A DNA stretch of 64,000 bases from Uranotaenia lowii (taxonomy: Eukaryota > Arthropoda > Insecta > Diptera > Culicidae), in NCBI RefSeq assembly GCF_029784155.1, contig NC_073691.1, positions 137,900,409 to 137,964,408 of the forward strand, written 5' to 3'. Positions 3,310 to 58,080 of the stretch are shown in pieces (position 1 is the first letter of the stretch; every line of letters begins with the position of its first letter). A program made the position numbers and the translations under genes. The notes under the pieces were generated by a model that was not told the origin of the DNA, did no database searches, and worked only from the letters and a program-made list of their open reading frames with translations.

Positions 3310-4545
3310 CTCGACATATAAGCTCGTGGTGGTCGATTCCATCACGTTCACCGTGGTGAAATTGGCTAACGCGCCGTTGTACTAAAGCGGAAGTTGCGGG
3401 TTCAAGTCCTGCCGGTGAGCCGTTGTACCTATCTTTTTCGAAAAATTCGTGATATCCTCCCCTGTTCCTATGTTCCCACTCACTGGAAGAAGGGTGATGT
3501 TTCAAATATTCATAGAATCATATCAAAATAATTCCCTATTTCTAATTTTGTCCATTTGTTAGATACATTCTCGGGTTATACTAAAGAATTGTACGAAAGC
3601 TTTCCTCCTCCCTACCTACATATATCGTCAATCCTATGCTCCTACTGCAAGAAAGGAATGGTTTCAAATAATCATAAAAATATATCCCATATTCCCATGC
3701 CAATTTGGTTCTATTTGCTTGGTTAGTTGGTAGGCCAGTAACATGTAAGTGAATCCCAGCTCCCTTTTTTATCTCTTCATTGGATGGAGAGGTGGGTACT
3801 TATTATTCATAGAAATGTCTGTTGTACTCAAATATTCTTTGATGCCGCATTTGGTTTCATTTGCTCAATAAATACTCAAGATATGTAAAAATTTCCCCAT
3901 TGATATCTCCCCACTGAAAAAAGAAGGGGTCTCAACTTGTCATACCATCATTTCGCGTTTTCAAATACCCTCCCATGTGGTTCCAAAAAATTGTATGGAA
4001 GCCCCCCCCCCCCCAGGTGAAAAAAATCTCAAATAACCATAGAAACATTTCTTGTATTCAAATATCCTTCCATTCCAAATTTGGTTCCATTTGATTGATT
4101 AGTTCTCTAGTTATTTACATTTCTCGTACCGAAATACAATCCCATGCCAAATTTGGTTCTGTTTTCATGAGCAGTTTTCCGAGTTATGAAGGCTTGTTAG
4201 GGGCCATTCAAATATTACGTAACGCGTTTAGGGGGGGGAGGGGGTGTAAGGGTCTATTACGCTTTGTGGATTTAGGATAGAAAATCTGAGACGAATGTGT
4301 TACGTAGGGGGGTGGGGGGGTTGAGAATGACCGAAAAATGCGTTACGTAATATTTGAACGGTCCCTTACTTTTATTTCAGAGAGCCCTCCCTCATATCCA
4401 GTGAGAGAGAGAGAAAGGTCTCAAACAATTATTGGAACCTCCCCGGGCCTCAAAAGTTTCCATGAAATTTCACGTAAATTGGTTCAGTGTATTTCGAGGT
4501 GAATCAGTGTACCCATGTGGATAACCAACATACATACATACATAA
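3310..4545 (+). mobile_element. tRNA-derived SINE with degenerate tandem tail
   Basis: The head (about 3345-3425) is tRNA-like, with a box-A-like GAAATTGGCTAACGCG and a box-B-like GGTTCAAGTCC. The same head occurs inverted at 57930-58020. It is followed by degenerate units of roughly 100-160 bp with recurring phrases such as CATAGAAA and TTTGGTTCCATTTG, then an (ACATAC)n-like tail near 4531. A Harbinger-like MITE is inserted in the tail. It is not a functional tRNA gene: the cloverleaf is incomplete. SINE status is inferred from the Pol III boxes plus copy number; the exact family is not assigned. Confidence 0.6.
4200..4365. mobile_element. PIF/Harbinger-like MITE, 166 bp
   Basis: Near-perfect terminal inverted repeats of about 26 bp beginning GGGGCCATTCAAATATTACG on the left and GGGACCGTTCAAATATTACG on the right, flanked by TTA at 4197-4199 and 4366-4368. 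A 3-bp TTA duplication and GGG-start termini fit the PIF/Harbinger superfamily. G-runs lie in the middle. It is nested in the SINE tail. Confidence 0.75.
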
Positions 4546-25713: not shown

Positions 25714-25958
25714 TGTCATTTTTGTCATTTTTGTCATTTTTGTCATTTTTGTCATTTTTGACATTTTTGTCATTTTTGTCATTTTTGTCATTTTTGTCAT
25801 TTTTGTCATTTTTGTCATTTTTGTCATTTTTGTCATTTTTGTCATTTTTGTCATTTTTGTCATTTTTGTCATTTTTGTCATTTTTGTCATTTTTGTCATT
25901 TTTGTCATTTTTGTCATTTTTGTCATTTTTGTCATTTTTGTCATTTTTGTCATTTTTT
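25714..25958. repeat. (GTCATTTTT)n microsatellite, about 27 copies
   Basis: A nearly perfect 9-bp repeat with one variant unit (GACATTTTT) near 25759. Because the unit is a multiple of three, all six frames stay open and give spurious repeat proteins. It sits at the 3' end of the LINE, where CR1-type elements typically end in short tandem repeats. Confidence 0.95.
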
Positions 25959-33165: not shown

Positions 33166-33320
33166 CTACAAAAATTTGCCTTAGGATCTTAATAAGTATC
33201 GGGTTAAAGCATGGTTCATCCAAAATCTGGACACACTGTTAACTATACCATAGCGCTCCTAGTTGTCGGATCTGGAATATTTTGACAGTACTTTGTTTGG
33301 AAATGTTTCTTCTATCAATG

Positions 33321-34997
33321 CACAGTGGTGCAGAACATCAATCTAGCTGTACGAAATTAATAGCACTCAGGAATGAAGAGATAGACATTTGATGTCTTCA
33401 GCAACATTGTTCAGTTTTACAAGGAGCATATTCTAGTATCAAAATTTTTGCCAAGGGGTCCACCGATAGCGCGATAAAAATGCTAACTTTTTTGATTTTC
33501 AAATTAGGGCTTTGATGTCTTTGACAAAGTTGTTTATCTGATCAAAATACATAAGTTTGTTGAATATGTCAAAGTTCTGTCACATCACCCTCAGGAGTTA
33601 CAGTCAAAGTGAAAAAAATCTCTTGAAAAAACAGTTTTTTGAACCTAACACGTTGTAGATTGGATAAAATGGTTCGCTGTCTTTGAAACAAAGTTGTATC
33701 AAGCCACGATCAACAATTGTCTCATACATTATGATGGGTTTAGAAGTTGCTGAAGCTCTATAGAAAGCATTTAGTGTATTTTATTGGCAATTTTGGAAGG
33801 CTCGTCCATCGAAAAGTGCACATTTTCGCAACACCCCCTTTTTTGTGATTATTTTTTATGATAAGCGGAACCATTTCCATTTGGAGTTAGCGCGGAAATC
33901 GGTGGAAATAGTAGAAATTTGAATGATTGAAAATACACATTTTATGTAAAAATTACCTATTTTACTAATAGAAAAAACGTTAATACATTTAATTTATTAA
34001 TAAAATGTTGCAGTTTTCTTTTATATATTTTGTTTTATTAAAAGGCATTTAAATTCAATTAAAACGTATGACTCAACGAAAAGACAAAAGCAAATTGCTT
34101 GTTAGATTGGATACTTGGATACAGTTACTTGGAACCAGTTGAAGCAATTATATTGTAATGGCAAAATTCTATTATTCAAATACTAATTAAGTGCTCTACC
34201 AAATTTAACAGATTAGTTCCATTAATTTTTTTTTAGTTGAAATGATTTGAAAAATCGAATTTAAATTTCTTTTAATAAAACAAAACATATAAAAGAAAAC
34301 TGCAACATTTTATTATTAAATTAAATGTTTTCAACGTTTTTTTTTTCTAAAAGTAAAATAGTTAAATTCTATATAAAAAGTGTATTTTCAATTATTCAAA
34401 TCTCTACAAGTTCCACCGATTTCCCCGCTAATTTCAAATGGAAATGGTTCCGCTTATCATCAAAAATAATCACAAAAAAGGGGGAGTTGCGAAAATGTGC
34501 ACTTTTCGATGGACGAGCCTTCCAAAATTGCCAATAAAATACACTAAATGCTTTCTATAGAACTTCAGCAACTTCTAAACCCATCATAATGTATGAGACA
34601 ATTGTAGATCGTGGCTTGATACAACTTTGTTTTAAAGACAGCGAACCATTTTATCCAATCTACAACGTGTTAGGTTCAAAAAACTGTTTTTTCAAGAGAT
34701 TTTTTTCACTTTGACTGTAACTCCTGAGGGTGATGTGACAGGACTTTGACATGTTCAACAAACTTATGTATTTTGATCAGATAAACAACTTTGTCAAAGA
34801 CATCAAAGCCCTAATTTGAAAAACAAAAAAGTTAGCATTTTTATCTCGCTATCGGTGGACCCCTCCGCAAAAATTTTGATACAAGAATATGCTCCTTGTA
34901 AAACTGAACAATGTTGCTGAAGACATCAAATGTCTATCTCTTCATCCCTGGGCGCTATTAATTTCGTACAGCTAGATTGATGTTTTGCACCACTGTG
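33321..34997. mobile_element. Long foldback element with CACAGTG ends (Transib-like)
   Basis: Arms of about 735 bp (33321-34055 and 34255-34997) are inverted copies. The ends read CACAGTGGTGC, and 5-bp CAATG flanks both sides (33316-33320 and 34998-35002). A CACAGTG/CACWATG-type heptamer end and a 5-bp target duplication are the signature of the Transib superfamily, the relatives of RAG1. No transposase is encoded; the arms have only shadow frames. It lies inside an ITmD37E element, whose two halves join when it is removed. Confidence 0.75.
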
Positions 34998-35159
34998 CAA
35001 TGGTGAAAATTTCATAACGATTCGTTCTGTTCCAATAAAGTTACACGTAATGGAAGCCGTGAAGCGAAAATTAATTTTGGACACCCACGTCAAAAACCCG
35101 ACGTGGTCTGGTTCAAAAATCGTGAAATCTGATTTTGGGCGGCTTCCTGGCCAAAAATT

Positions 35160-47700: not shown

Positions 47701-49341
47701 AATTCCTCCCACACCGAACCAAGTCAGTGCTCCAGCAGCATGAGCAGCAACGGTCGCAACGTAGTTCCTTTTTCATAAATGTTGTTTGTGTCATGAATAA
47801 AAAAAAATTACAAAATTACATAAACCTGCCTTCTGCATAATTAACCCCGAAAGAGCCGGTACATTTGGGAGGGGTTCTTACTTTGTGTTTAGTTTCGCCT
47901 ATCTTCCTTCAACTTTATCGAGGTTCTCCTAGGTAGGGTAACGGACCTATTTTGGACCGCTTTGGGTAGTGCCTATGCTATTTTCTGAAATAAAAATGTA
48001 CATGTTACCATTTTCGACTGCTTAATCCGTTCATTACGAAGATCAAGGCTTTTTCTGTCGAAATATATTATCGTTTGTTGCAATGTTACAAGATTTAAGC
48101 GTAAAAACTCGTTTCTTCGATCATCTGGTCTGGTCAATATTTTGGACCACCAGGTTTCTATTTTGGACCACCCTCTGGACCTATTTTGGACCACCCTTAA
48201 ACTTAATAAGTGTTTATTCTAAATTTTGCTTTATTTATGACAACGATTGAGGCGCAATTATGAGAATAATTCAGTTAATCTTTTCCTTTCTTAAACTTGT
48301 AGACAAGTTTTGGTTGTTCACATTTATCAATTCTTGGACTAACTTTCTTTAATTTTCCCCCAATCTCTATTTAGGTACCTTTGTTTATTAAATATTCCCT
48401 ACTTCAACCATCTGTTTTTCTACTACTTCTTGTGCTTTAAAACAGTAATTTTCGATAAGAATATAGTAAGAACAGAAAAACTCCTCCGTTTTATAATGTG
48501 TTTTAAATGTTTTGAAAATTCCGACAGCACACTGCATTCTCGACGAAATTCGTTTTTTGAATCTTTGGGACCAATTTTTGGAACGCAAATCTCCTTCAGG
48601 CGACCCAATGATACGTTAGTAATGTCTGACATCAACAACTCCGCGACATCATTTGAGGCATTTTAACTTCCAAAACCTTAGTGGATTTGGTTTGGCTTCA
48701 GTTCTGTAGAATACATAGATTCAAAAATGATAAAAAATATACGAGAATTATGTAATCTTTTTAACCATCTTTACCCAGATTTTTGTTGTGGAAAAATTCG
48801 CAAAAGTTCAGTTTTATCTTTGAAATGAAGAGTTAATCACCGTAAATTCATTTTATGAAATTGTTTTATCGGCTATATCGGTGAAATTTTATATTCTTTG
48901 AGAAAGAATATTTAAGAATTGGAAGAAGAAGATTAGAATAAGGTGAAAGATGTTGAAAATGAGCGGAAGGGTAATTTTAATTTGAAAAACTTTTCATCAC
49001 ATTTCATCGTTTTGTTCCTCACGGGCCTACTACCTTGCAGTGGTAGATACTTTTATCTTTGAAAAACCTTTGGTCCAACGAAAATAAATAACCCTAGTTT
49101 ACAGCATTTTTGAACTCAGTAAACTGAAGGTCATTTCCAATGTGAAATCGGGCGCTGAATCCGAAAATGAAATTCAAAAAAATCTCAGTAGAACCGTTTT
49201 TGAGTTATGCTCCAAACATGAAATTTCGAAAAAATTAAAAAAGTTCTTGTATTTAGATTAAAATATCTCAGACGGCATAACAGTAATTTGAAATCTCTCT
49301 TTTGCATATTGAAGGTGAATAAATTTTCTATCGATCATCTG

Positions 49342-49505
49342 TGTGTGGGGCACGAATAGATGTATGGGTTTAGCACACATTCTCTCTGAGCTGTCTCGAG
49401 TGTCACCTCAGTTATGACGCATCCGTCAACATAGTGAGGCATAACGCCAGTTCCGTGGTCGAGAATATATCGGTGGGTGATCTCTGTTGGTGTCCATGTT
49501 GCACA
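49342..49505 (+). repeat. Left LTR, 164 bp
   Basis: Begins TGTGTGGGGCACGAATAG and ends CATGTTGCACA. A TATAT motif near 49465 could serve as core promoter. Bases 49471-49487 are complementary to 49613-49629 in the leader. Confidence 0.95.
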
Positions 49506-49507
49506 TT

Positions 49508-49523
49508 TGGCGACCGACAGGAC
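49508..49523 (+). other. Primer-binding site, tRNA-Arg-like
   Basis: TGGCGACCGACAGGAC starts two bases after the left LTR. It resembles the TGGCGACCGTGACAG-type site I recall for insect gypsy elements primed by tRNA-Arg. The exact tRNA was not checked. Confidence 0.65.
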
Positions 49524-49755
49524 TAAAAAAAGTCTTACATTTCAGTAGATAAAAGTGAGTGATTTGTTTTTATGTGAAACTGACGTTTTTTTGAATGGGA
49601 AAAGAATCTGCTACAGAGATCACCCACCGGGGAGAATTGCAGAAGAACGGAAAGTTTCAGTGTTGCCAGATTTCTCAATTACTGAAACAATTAAGAAATT
49701 AAAAAAAAAGTAGTACAATCTGGATTACAATATGGTCAAACAGGTAGTATATTTA

Positions 49756-50457
49756 TTGCGGGTCGAGAGGACCGCAAATTGAAACAGCGTGTTGAGAGGA
49801 CAGCTGTATTAAAAAAAAGGCGAGTTGAGAGGACAGCCTAATCATTGCGTGTTGGATGGACCGCAATGGAAACAGCGTGTTGAGAGGACAGCTGTAATTA
49901 AAAAAAAGGCGAGTTGAGAGGACAGCCTAATCATTGCGTGTTGGAAGGACCGCAATGTAAACAGCGTGTTGAGAGGACAGCTGTATTTTTAAAAAGGCGA
50001 GTTGAGAGGACAGCCTAATCATTGCGTGTTGGAAGGACCGCAATGGAAACAGCGTGTTGAGAGGACAGCTGTACTTTCAAAAAGGCGAGTTGAGAGGACA
50101 GCCTGATCATTGTGAGTTGGAAGAACCGCAATGGAAACAGCGTGTTGAGAGGACAGCTGTATTTAAAAAAAAAGGCGAGTTGAGAGGACAGCCTAATCAT
50201 TGCGTGTTTGAAGGACTGCAATGGAAACAGCGTGTTGAGAGGACAGCTGTACTTTAAAAAAAATGCGAGTTAAGAGGATAGCCTATGATTTGCGAGTTGG
50301 GAAGACCGCATAGGAAACAGCTTGTTGAGAGAACAGCTGCATTGAATTAAGGTGAATAATAAAAAAAACAGCGTTTTGAGAAGTCAGCTGTTTGGAAAAA
50401 AAGTCGATTTAGGGGTCATGTCTAATAATTGCGGGGTGAGAGGATCGCAAAAAAAAA
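49756..50457 (+). repeat. Tandem array of about 20 RNA-type hairpins
   Basis: An 89-bp unit is repeated about six times and then decays. Each unit holds three small stem-loops sharing the loop core GTTGAGAGGAC or GTTGGAAGGAC. The stems differ: ACAGC/GCTGT (for example 49784-49807), AGGC/GCCT (49818-49839) and ATTGCG/CGCAAT (49844-49867). Variants keep pairing (ATTGTG/CGCAAT near 50110 through a wobble pair). No protein is encoded across it. Its likely role is RNA-level, for example binding a Gag or host protein. Confidence 0.85.
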
Positions 50458-52432
50458 AAAATAACAGAGAAGACAGCTGTAATAAAAATAAAAAAAATTG
50501 CGAGTATCAAGGATGGCCTAATGATATCGAGTTTTTGAAAAGAAAAGCTTATCATGAGGTTAGCTGTTTGAATTGGAAGAAAAATAACACAGAGCTGGTT
50601 CAGAGTGTTTGAGTTGACTTTTGAAATTTCATAAGGAATGAAAATGAGAAAGTTTTTTGATAAAGCTAGGCAAAAGCGTTTTAAAAACCTTTGTTTTTGA
50701 GCAAAAAAGGAACAAATAAGGAAAGCTTTGTGAATTGAAATGCTAGACGGAATTTTAATGTCTATGCTATCAGAAATTTCAAATGATTATGTTAATGTAA
50801 AGTTAATGTCAACAGCTCGAAATATCATTCCTTGAGTTTTAGTGTCTCAATAAGCTGTCACTTGAATAATGAAGACGTACTAACGCTAGTTTAGTTGACC
50901 TTTTACTTCAAATGATTTCGGTTGGTAAATGATTCAGTTAAAAAAAAAACATTGAGTCGGTGTTAACTCTAACCAGTATCCATTGATTTGAATCTGTTCC
51001 AACTATCCAACTTGTGGGAAAAATTTGTCAAAAAAACGACTTCGACTCGTTGGAGATGAGGTTTTTTTCAGTTTTTGTTCTGGTTTAGAGCTCAAAGTTT
51101 ATTTCAGTTGATTTGTTATTTTGAGGCAGTTTTGATACGATCGAAAATAGAGCAATGGAAACGTAGTTATGTTGTATTTATGTGGCAGCAAGATTGGTCG
51201 AACGAGAAAAATAAGTTTAAAATAAGTAAGTACATGTGACCAGTACTTGATGATATTAAGCAATGAATGGCAGGGCGAGCGCGGGGGTTCTACCTAGCAC
51301 AAGGGTAATTGCAAACGTTTTGTTTAGCATCCACGTTGGTTAGAGCCAAAAAGCACGTCAACTGCGATCGGCGAGACGTATGGCTTAGAACGAGGTAAGC
51401 CGGGTAAGACGTGTTTTCGCGATTTACTTGCGTGTTAAGTACCTTTTGTATAGTCTTATTTAGACATGTTAATTAGCAATAAATGAAAAATCAATTGGAC
51501 TGGCAATCCTGACGTAGACTTCAGTTGACAGTTATGAAAGTGCCATGCGGTTCCTTTTAGCCGCTCCGTAGTGGTATGCGTGAGGATCCTTCAATTTGGA
51601 ATGTGAGAGAGCTGGCGAGATGAAACTCGCGTGGCGATCATGGTTGCCACAGGTACAGATTTCTTTTAATGATTCGACCAAAACAAACTACAAAAAACGT
51701 TTGGTTGAAAGATTATTAGACAAATCAAACGACTATTTTTCCAGTAAAGGATGCCAGTATGTGAAATGGTGTTATCATTTGTAGTATGTAGTTAACGGAT
51801 TAGTAGTTCATCAAACAGAATATTTCATCATATTTAGTTGAGAAGTTCGTGATTTGATAATACAGATTTTGAGTGAAATATAAAAAAACAAGCCATTTAC
51901 AGAATTCAGATGTTTCTTGTAAAGCGCTATTGAATTGCTCAACCTTGTAAGTACAGATCATTGTTCAAATAGTTTACGATTTTTTAAGTTTGGTACAGAT
52001 TTTCGTCAAGTGGTGTAGATGAAGAAGACTTTTTTCGATTGAAAGTTGAGATTTCCGTGTAGCAATGCTGGTCAATGGCCTCTCAACGAGAGACAAAAAA
52101 ACGAGAATGAGAGGGATGGTAGGAGGGAAGTAGTATCATTACGTAGTCGTTACATTGCACGCACACATTGTCATCGTGTGCCTATCAACTCAATATAAGG
52201 AGAAACATTCTTAAGTTTTTGCAGTCATCATCGTGTTTTGGGGAATGGAGAGAGCAACTCAGAGAGCTTGCTTGACACATAGCGCCAATTGGTTTTCAAT
52301 AGCAAAATCACTCATTATTCTAACCGTACCAGACTCTCCTTTGGCCAGAGCTGCAAAATGTCGGTTGTAAAGTGATAATATGTTTTACCGAAAATTTTCT
52401 CAAAAAAGCTTGTTGAAACGATTTTTTCTTCT

Positions 52433-52446
52433 GAGAGGAAGGGAGA
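52433..52446 (+). other. Polypurine tract before the right LTR
   Basis: GAGAGGAAGGGAGA directly abuts the right LTR, the position and composition expected of the plus-strand primer in reverse transcription. Confidence 0.75.
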
Positions 52447-52610
52447 TGTGTGGGGCACGAATAGATGTATGGGTTTAGCACACATTCTCTCTGAGCTGTC
52501 TCGAGTGTCACCTCAGTTATGACGCATCCGTCAACATAGTGAGGCATAACGCCAGTTCCGTGGTCGAGAATATATCGGTGGGTGATCTCTGTTGGTGTCC
52601 ATGTTGCACA
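52447..52610 (+). repeat. Right LTR, 164 bp
   Basis: Same sequence as the left LTR with no difference seen on base-by-base comparison. The adjoining ATCTG at 52611-52615 is the target duplication. Confidence 0.95.
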
Positions 52611-55032
52611 ATCTGAACACTGTTTTTGCGTTTGACCAACAGTATTGTTGGTATTAGTGACTTTATGAGAAGACAAATTATAAAAAACGCATTTTTTTAG
52701 AGAAAATTTTGTTTCAACGAAAGTTTTAGACTCGATGGTAGCATTTTAAAAATCTGATTTTCTTTTGCGCTTAAATTTCAATTCAAAACAAAGATTTCAA
52801 GTGGTTATTTATCAGAATCGGTTGAAAATTGAAGAAGTTATGGCTACTTTACCATAACTGTAATTTTTGCAGTTTTTAATAATTTAACGAACCGCAGTAC
52901 ACTTATCATAGTATAGGAAGAATGAAACATGATAAATCTCACTCGCTTCAAGTCAAAATTATTTATAAGCTTACCAGAAGGTCACATGCCAAGTTTCAGG
53001 AAGATCTGACCATAGGGAGACGTTGCTTAGGTCTCAAACGTGAATAAAATTTTGAGGTATTTTGCCCGAAAGGAACGAAAAATACTGGTTTTTCATCAAT
53101 AACTTTTTTCCTCACTGGCTGATTGTTTTTTATGGTTGATTTTCTTACATCCTAAGTTGAGACAAATATTTCACCCGAAGACTGTAACTCGATTGGTTTT
53201 GAAACAGAAAAGTTATTGCGGTTCAAAGGCCGCAAATTTTGTCCAACACGCAATGAGTACTTTTTACGCAATGCTTTTTATACGAGAATTTTCGACCAAA
53301 ATACAATTTTTGAACCCCAATAACTTTTCTGTTTCAAATCCAATCGAGTTACAGTCTTCGGGTGAAATATTTGTCTCAACTTAGGCTTTAAGAAAATCAA
53401 CCATAGAAACAATCAGCTAGTGATGAAAAAAGTTATTGATGAAAAACCAGTATGTTTCGTTCCTTCCGGGCAAAATACCTCAAAATTTTATTCACGTTTG
53501 AGACTGAAGCAACCCCTCCCTATGGTCAGATCTTCTTGAAACTTGGCATGTGACTTTCTGGTAAGCTAATAAATAATTTTGACTTGGAGCGAGTGAGATT
53601 TATCATGTTTCATTTTACCTATACTATGATAAGTATACTGCGGTTCGTTAAATTATTAAAAACTGCAAAAATTACAGTTATGGTAAAGTAGCCATAACTT
53701 CTTCAATTTTCAACCGATTCTGATAAATAACCACTTGAAATCTTTGTTTTGAATTGAAATTTAAGCGCAAAAGAAAATCAGATTTTTAAAATGCTACCAT
53801 CGAGTCTAAAACTTTCGTTGAAACAAAATTTTCTCTGAAAAAATGCGTTTTTTATAATTTGTTTTCTCATAAAGTCACTAATACCAACAATACTGTTGGT
53901 CAAACGCAAAAACAGTGTTCAGATGATCGATAGAAAATTTATTCACCTTCAATATGCAAAAGAGAGATTTCAAATTACTGTTATGCCGTCTGAGATATTT
54001 TAACCTAAGTATAAGAACTTTTTTAATTTTTTCGAAATTTCACATTTGGAGCATAACGCAAAAACGGTTCTACTGAGATTTTTTTGAATTTTGTTTTTGG
54101 ATTCAGCGCCCGATTTTACATTAAAAATGTTGGTCAGTTAATCAAGTTCACGATTTTTTTAAAATTTTGTAAACTAGTGAATTGTTGGAGTAAATTCTTC
54201 AACATTTTTTTTTCCATAGATTGCATAACCACAGGGGCTGCAAAATAGCAATTCTCGTGTTCTTAAGCTGTAGCTTTCGACAACTGCTTATCAAACAGTT
54301 GCCATTATTGTAGATTGTAAGATTAACTTGGTTTGAAGAAAAGTGCACAAAAAGTAAGTGAAAACAATGATTGGCTTGGTTTTATGCCAATTTAAGTGAA
54401 CCCCTTCTAAAGGCGGGTTTGGGCTTTAGCGAGTTGATTAAATAAAATAATGCCAAAAAGACCAAATTTTATTTATAATAAGCGATTATAATAGTGTGCA
54501 TAATTCTTTTCATATCGTCGTACACCGTTTTATTACGTTCATGAACATTTAACAGCGAGTTAAATACTCAGGTTATGTTGGGTGGTCCAAAATAAGTCCC
54601 TAAGGAATTAAGTTGGACCTATTTTTGACATGGGAAGAATTGCGATAAAAACGAGTTTTTCAGGTTTTTCAAGCTTGCTAACTTGAACTTAGTTTTCATG
54701 TATTTTATCATAACTGTAAACATGTTTTTAGTTTTTAAATTCATCACAGCTAGGCAGAAAACTTCTTCAAAGTTGACTCCAATAATGGCACGTCCTCTTG
54801 AAACGAGCTTGATTTGGTCCAACTGTCAGAAATCAAAACTTTGTTTTCAATTTTCTATCACTTATCAGTTTATTTAAATGGAAACTTAGATATGATTAGA
54901 ATCATAAGAAATAGCTTTAACTATATTTGTTCAAATTTTTCATGATAAGCATGATTTATGAGAGAAAGATTGGAAAAAAGCTGCAAGGTGGTCCAAAATA
55001 TGTACCCGGTTCAAAATAAGTCCGTTACCCTA

Positions 55033-57879: not shown

Positions 57880-58080
57880 GATATCAAAGAAAGAAAGAGC
57901 ATAAGCCGTAAATATCATAAACTTCTCGACAAAGATACAACGGCTCACCAGCAGGACTTGAACCCGCAATTTGCGCTTCAGTACAACGGCGCGTTAGCCA
58001 TTTACTCCACGCTGAATGTGACGAAATAGGCTTCAGTATGCGTACATGTCGAGCTCCGTCGGTCGACCGTGGATCTTCTA
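57880..58080 (-). mobile_element. tRNA-derived SINE, minus strand
   Basis: On the minus strand GAGTAAATGGCTAACGCGCC (box A-like) and GCGGGTTCAAGTCCTGCTGG (box B) match the SINE head at 3345-3425. Here the body is short (ends in GAAAGAAAG-like sequence) and the degenerate tandem tail of the other copy is absent. Confidence 0.65.

Follow-up and report, generated by a model that had tools for sequence, protein, structure and literature searches.

In the mosquito Uranotaenia lowii, the leader of a non-coding LTR retrotransposon contains hairpins in tandem array that present one nearly constant loop on stems that change, and this conserved-loop array has very probably been under selection between element families. 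Such selection is supported because the stems change between types but keep pairing, because the motif follows the primer site in sense orientation, and because BLAST aligns only the array between this element and two loci of a second family. The array would represent a multivalent RNA element that non-coding LTR retrotransposons of a large group carry in their 5' leaders. All positions given without a locus name refer to the window, by which we mean the whole 64,000-nucleotide stretch that was analysed.

The window element occupies 49342..52610 on the plus strand (3,269 bp or 3.27 kb), as recognised by its LTR pair and the missing long frames. Its two 164-bp LTRs have TG...CA ends and are 100% identical (5' LTR at 49342..49505 and 3' LTR at 52447..52610, both plus strand), and they are flanked by a 5-bp target-site duplication, ATCTG, a strandless feature with its left copy at 49337..49341 and its right copy at 52611-52615. 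The 5' LTR is followed by a primer-binding site (49506..49524, plus strand), identified by comparison with sibling copies and two bases shorter than in sibling copy L116, which we take to be of the tRNA-Arg type by comparison with Drosophila elements. A purine run preceding the 3' LTR (52433..52446, plus strand), picked out by eye, is a candidate polypurine tract. No frame within the element is longer than 125 aa from stop to stop. With its LTRs, TG...CA ends, target duplication, primer site and absence of gag and pol, the element is LARD-like in the features tested, and as a coding-free element whose LTRs flank tandem repeats it is also of the cqUNK type, going on the Culex side by the part of the published description available. 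It interrupts one of the two arms of a large inverted-repeat element (49098-49341 plus 52611-54163); these arms are 518 bp long and 97% complementary, and the other one shows the uninterrupted site. Another large inverted repeat, with 662-bp arms 95% complementary, is found at 33316-33977 and 34341-35002. The window also holds two inverted 121-bp copies (3310-3430 and 57933-58053), 81% alike and each with a tRNA-Ser-like gene of anticodon ACT, which are perhaps a tRNA-derived SINE, and a run of 27 almost perfect 9-base repeats of TGTCATTTT at 25714-25957, directly past the end of a reverse-transcriptase-like ORF. A cytochrome P450 ORF of the window shares 99% identity with a U. lowii protein.

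Downstream of the primer site, sense hairpins with the loop GUUGRRAGGAC form a tandem array at 49753..50453 (plus strand), in which three stem classes recur with a period of 88-90 bp, and a degenerate tail composed of repeat families D3, D5 and D6 follows at 50454..50530 (plus strand). The 89-bp unit of the preliminary description agrees with this spacing and with TRF (period 88, 6.5 copies, 90% matches), and its three stem classes, ACAGC/GCTGT, AGGC/GCCT and ATTGCG/CGCAAT, are recognised by eye as described. Examples, all on the plus strand, are ACAGC-GU-loop-A-GCUGU (class 1, 49784..49807), AGGC-GA-loop-A-GCCU (class 2, 49818..49839) and CAUUGCG-U-loop-CGCAAUG (class 3, 49932..49957). The proposed number of about 20 tandem hairpins with the same loop in a non-coding LTR element was confirmed by a motif scan, which gave 20 clustered loop matches at up to two mismatches. 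A covariance model, whose training sequences include four of the array's own hairpins, detected 16 at 49753-50453 (E up to 0.032), all on the plus strand, this being a lower count that misses the C-closed third class; elsewhere in the window the model gave no match at E up to 10. At up to one mismatch the loop matches the two window strands 23 times versus 3.5 ± 1.9 times in shuffles, and the 60.6 kb outside the element contain three loop matches on both strands together. Wobble pairs near 50110 and 50200 and the stems of late units near 50371 and 50430 are also visible by eye as described. However, that the stems always pair was too strong a statement, as there are late units with broken pairs (by eye, for example at 50260-50287 and about 50400-50425), and each of the four inner stem positions pairs in 86-88% of 494 unique hairpins from 34 loci.

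The folding z of the array is -10.2 in sense and -6.2 in antisense orientation (20 shuffles each), and that of an equal-length control stretch further down the same element is 0.0 (20 shuffles). Single hairpins fold at -7.1 to -10.6 kcal/mol (seven hairpins, three loci). In the predicted hairpin an internal loop separates the lower stem from an upper stem of three pairs (GUU/GAC), which is capped by the pentaloop GRRAG. The variable lower stem ends in nearly invariant G-C and C-G pairs, the internal loop between the stems is asymmetric and mostly GW/A, and loop pair 3-9 is U-G, U-A or C-G in 281 of 286 unique hairpins. Several other identities for the array were rejected. A protein-coding repeat does not fit periods of 88, 89 and 74, which are not multiples of three, or the 6 to 17 stops in each array frame. 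A known RNA family was dismissed as no Rfam family matches the array at the gathering threshold or at E up to 1. Matches to core patterns in 72 viral-contig stretches and in seven prokaryote contigs, one match each in the latter, look like chance and do not indicate a bacterial or viral origin. A GAGA-factor site, which presumably needs GAGAG, was also discarded, the loops GGGAG and GGAAG being without it.

The hairpin core, GCGNGTTGRRAGGACAGC, is widespread in the genome. Across 1.078 Gb, an 18-base pattern covering the loop and inner stem is matched exactly 5,584 times (2,919 and 2,665 on the two strands), while the same pattern reversed as a control has none. For the LTR family of the window element, 40 of 44 candidates were scored (72-100% identity); at least five loops (up to two mismatches) follow the LTR at 13 of 30 loci read, the window locus included, and the other 17 probably represent truncated copies, solo LTRs or 3' LTRs. 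The longer arrays of this family have the three stem classes in one fixed order, as judged by eye. A second family, B (L130 and others), differs in its LTR, which measures about 181 bp; its primer site is similar, its target duplication is TTTCC, and its array has a period of 74 (31 + 43), with long stems AATTTCAAGC/GCTTGAAATT and short stems AGGC/GCCT. When five pieces of the window element were compared by BLAST with two family-B loci, L130 and L133, over the full element length, the array was the only part to align. Thirteen further loci (L135-L147), which were taken from the list of 18-base matches and are hence guaranteed to contain the motif, add other stems, among them ATCAAGC/GCTTGAT and CACC..AAGC/GCTTGGTG; as many as 35 loops occur in one 2-kb stretch. 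Within their elements, the relatives examined contain neither a long ORF nor a Pfam match. Among ten ORFs from the fetched loci that were scanned against Pfam, seven had no match and three matched P450, reverse transcriptase and MATH in the flanks, the reverse transcriptase match near L134 being antisense and more than 5 kb past the L134 array.

Leaders were also sampled independently of the loop by means of the pattern GCACATTTGGCGACCGTGACAGG, which joins the LTR end to the primer site and occurs 57 + 66 times in the genome (the bare primer site occurs 109 + 121 times). From 100 listed places with this pattern, 32 were picked by hand with their sequence unseen, 18 of 923 bp and 14 of 700 bp. 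At least two sense loops (up to one mismatch) follow the primer site in 26/32 of these leaders (14/18 and 12/14 by batch), which are related copies and not independent, with near-duplicates such as L161/L179 and L163/L188; the remaining six primer sites have fewer than two loops in the stretch read. The leaders together contain 215 sense matches at up to one mismatch (128 and 87 by batch) and no antisense match (0 in each batch), with one antisense match, in L161, once two mismatches are allowed. A motif-blind k-mer ranking of the first batch placed pieces of the hairpin core on top, in up to 15/18 leaders. No sense frame in the 32 leaders is longer than 115 aa. This placement bears on the possibility that the array works as DNA, offering many binding sites as an insulator or enhancer in the manner of the su(Hw) array that Drosophila gypsy carries in its 5' UTR. 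Such an element would likewise be tandem and lie after the 5' LTR, and a role of this kind is discussed for the Culex repeats in the available parts of Marsano et al. (2012; PMC3286476). Nonetheless, we consider it very unlikely given the ratio of 215 sense to 0 antisense matches at up to one mismatch and stems that differ between families yet pair, when a double-stranded site needs no pairing.

Evidence for selection on RNA structure also comes from the stems. From a covariation set of 511 sites at 34 loci, reduced to the unique hairpins mentioned above, stem positions 3 and 4 are paired at 0.87 and 0.88 versus 0.56 and 0.58 with the arms shuffled; in the first batch of leaders alone these positions pair at 0.92 and 0.89 versus 0.66 and 0.83. 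In a sample of 134 hairpins from the 34 loci, limited to four per locus and to sequences with no more than one mismatch to GTTGAGAGGAC, pairing is seen in 85.6% of cells versus 75.6 ± 0.7 shuffled, and the covariation score is 0.303 versus 0.135 shuffled and 0.137 for the best slid register. Cells changed on both sides yet pairing number 111 versus 47.9 ± 6.0 shuffled, which 0/500 shuffles reach, although the few and inherited stem types mean that cell counts overstate independent events. Counted as pairs with a change on both sides (5 versus 4.2 shuffled) or as further pair types (19 versus 18.2 shuffled), there is no excess in this sample. Two inner stem pairs have almost no variation, and at least six clearly different stems can be told apart by eye.

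The preliminary description had proposed selection on RNA structure with a fixed loop, to be checked by covariation across copies. Between stem types the proposal is supported by the covariation, the sense placement and the alignment of the array only; from copy to copy within a class the result is not convincing. Three of four stem classes have no excess of within-class compensation, and the fourth, with 9 versus 4.9 expected, a value reached in 118/2000 shuffles, is not convincing. RNAalifold, run on the hairpin alignment, also predicted no pairs. The within-class pattern would reflect neutral decay of single insertions, with selection acting on the source elements. The array may alternatively be a neutral by-product, its units multiplied and homogenised by slippage and template switching and its hairpins kept perfect by quasi-palindrome correction rather than selection. 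The number of units per array indeed varies widely from locus to locus, changes within classes look neutral, and loop identity about equals spacer identity in 2/12 aligned arrays (0.80 and 0.80 in L112; 0.76 and 0.73 in L165). We nevertheless judge a neutral origin to be improbable, as it leaves unexplained both the sense-only placement and the occurrence of one loop in families that align nowhere else. Additionally, across families each loop position carries 1.4-1.8 bits of information versus mostly <0.3 in the distal flanks, and while these values are inflated by the selection of loops by motif, the motif-free ranking yielded the same core.

How these elements move has a bearing on what a selected array could do. 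For family B there are 581 candidate LTR matches. The 40 best, 96-100% identical to the query, make up 17 pairs, of which 16 have start-to-start spacings of 2.2-3.0 kb and one of 8.9 kb; full sequence within these pairs comes from L130 only. In the 4.4 kb read inside the 8.9-kb pair there is no loop and no gag or pol frame, and all frames >110 aa are repeat-like. Since a spacing of 2.2-3.0 kb is too short for gag-pol and the movement was recent, elements unable to encode their own proteins must, judging from these sequences, have been mobilised in trans. An autonomous copy bearing the LTR of the window family was rejected, no frame between its long LTR pairs exceeding 170 aa. Potential partners abound: BEL/Pao has 2,741 candidates and Ty3/gypsy 3,742, with many frames open among the 150 scored for each. 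The suggested search for an autonomous element sharing the loop found none, in a comparison of low power that covered ten BEL 5' regions and the proximity of primer sites to pol. The ten BEL 5' regions (2 kb each), eight of which extend beyond the 5' end of the ORF, some of them perhaps stopping short of the primer site, contain neither the loop core nor a tRNA-Arg site, and the covariance model found nothing significant in them; a BEL/Pao partner is unsupported for these ten families. Of the 100 primer sites listed, not one is found less than 10 kb from any of 284 scored pol positions (nearest 23.5 kb), a test of low power as most pol copies are unlisted.

Because the elements encode nothing yet keep their LTRs and primer site and moved recently, their RNA must be copied by another element's proteins. 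We see an even chance that the array serves as a multivalent RNA handle for this mobilisation in trans, most likely for packaging by a partner's Gag. A protein would most likely read the loop and inner stem while the outer stem need only pair, the hairpins would most likely be the handle by which the partner's Gag binds and packages the RNA, and they may have multiplied because more sites win the competition. We infer each of these steps, namely that a protein binds, that this protein is Gag, that packaging is the step served and that competition explains the number. As would be expected of a packaging signal, conserved hairpins are found in the 5' leader, and against this stand the within-class and RNAalifold negatives. 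The same structural evidence (pairing, covariation and sense placement) would also suit hairpins that bind a host RNA-binding or nuclear export factor rather than Gag, as a transport or stability element for unspliced, coding-free RNA. A host factor would explain one loop common to several families without a common Gag, and fits the failure of the low-power search of ten BEL 5' regions and pol proximity to find a partner with the loop. Nothing specific speaks against it and no Rfam family matches the array, but we know of no host factor for a GRRAG-type loop and hold this explanation to be rather unlikely.

Packaging by a partner's Gag may also be part of a wider pattern, which we put forward tentatively and with somewhat less confidence than the handle itself. 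One RNA recognition module may be common to a guild of protein-less LTR parasites in this mosquito, whether through inheritance, exchange or convergence. This module would be a tandem hairpin array with one loop code, read by a partner's Gag or a host factor and multiplied to outcompete autonomous RNA. Leader arrays with family-specific loop codes would then perhaps be a general packaging language, a suggestion made because the leader of L191 has a different hairpin array. This locus, which has a tRNA-Arg-type primer site without the GCACA end and another LTR end upstream, contains none of the GUUGRRAGGAC-type loops, but another alternating hairpin array (z -5.6) at L191:255-440 (G000:C1:49735228-49735927). 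Its hairpins are ACCGG-CGGATA-CCGGT, three times, and CCGCAGTTCGG-YTGATA-CCGACTGCGG, twice (TTGATA among the loops), and an ATG some 130 bases beyond the array opens a frame that ends after 36 codons. A short, repeated and nearly invariant loop on changing stems is a concrete handle that could be used as bait for its protein partner, and bears on how the RNA of non-coding LTR elements is copied by foreign proteins. It may account for the tandem repeats described in mosquito elements in 2012, to which no function had been assigned, and, if true, would be a natural case of parasites evolving by multiplication of a recognition site.

Like the preliminary description, we know of no TRIM or LARD with a hairpin array of one loop. 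Coding-free mosquito LTR elements with tandem repeats, however, are already known, in the form of 38 Culex quinquefasciatus families (cqUNK) without a master copy (Marsano et al., 2012; PMC3286476). As far as the available text goes, these share with the elements described here the LTRs, primer site, lack of coding, internal tandem repeats and absence of a master copy; an Arg primer site is given in 11/38 table rows, 5-bp duplications in most families, and repeat periods of 74 and 31 for cqUNK_38, as in family B (PMC3286476). Its authors discuss recombination, regulatory DNA and passive mobilisation in trans, and the words hairpin, stem-loop and packaging are absent from the parts available (PMC3286476). 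What stands from the preliminary claim of novelty is therefore the hairpins, common loop and stem covariation, which are unmentioned there, the comparison being by description and not by sequence (PMC3286476). The likeness to TRIM and LARD elements, which the same paper also discusses (PMC3286476), is that LTRs and primer site are kept, coding is lost and mobilisation occurs in trans. In the openly licensed literature, as far as its texts were available, we found no description of the GUUGRRAGGAC loop or of hairpin arrays in such elements.

Bacterial sponge RNAs of the CsrB/RsmZ type present a GGA-containing loop on many hairpins to one protein. Their likeness to the array, which has no Rfam match, is one of analogy only. 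The gypsy insulator of Drosophila consists of double-stranded DNA sites without paired arms, unlike the array here. It does resemble the array in that its sites are tandem and belong to the 5' UTR of an LTR element; the insulator is mentioned in the Culex paper (PMC3286476). A parallel in terms of the proposed function is VL30 of rodents, whose RNA is packaged by another virus's particles via a leader signal, according to the available parts of a mouse paper (PMC4859993). The likeness is in RNA packaging by foreign particles, which for the mosquito elements is only a proposed reading, and the difference is that VL30 has no hairpin array, with no conserved packaging motif reported in those parts (PMC4859993). 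The array is also like the multiple packaging signals of MS2 and other RNA viruses, which, in the portion of the source available, present a common recognition motif on numerous stem-loops whose stems differ (PMC6281560). Those signals are dispersed in the coding genomes of autonomous viruses, whereas the array described here is tandem and lies in a non-coding leader (PMC6281560).
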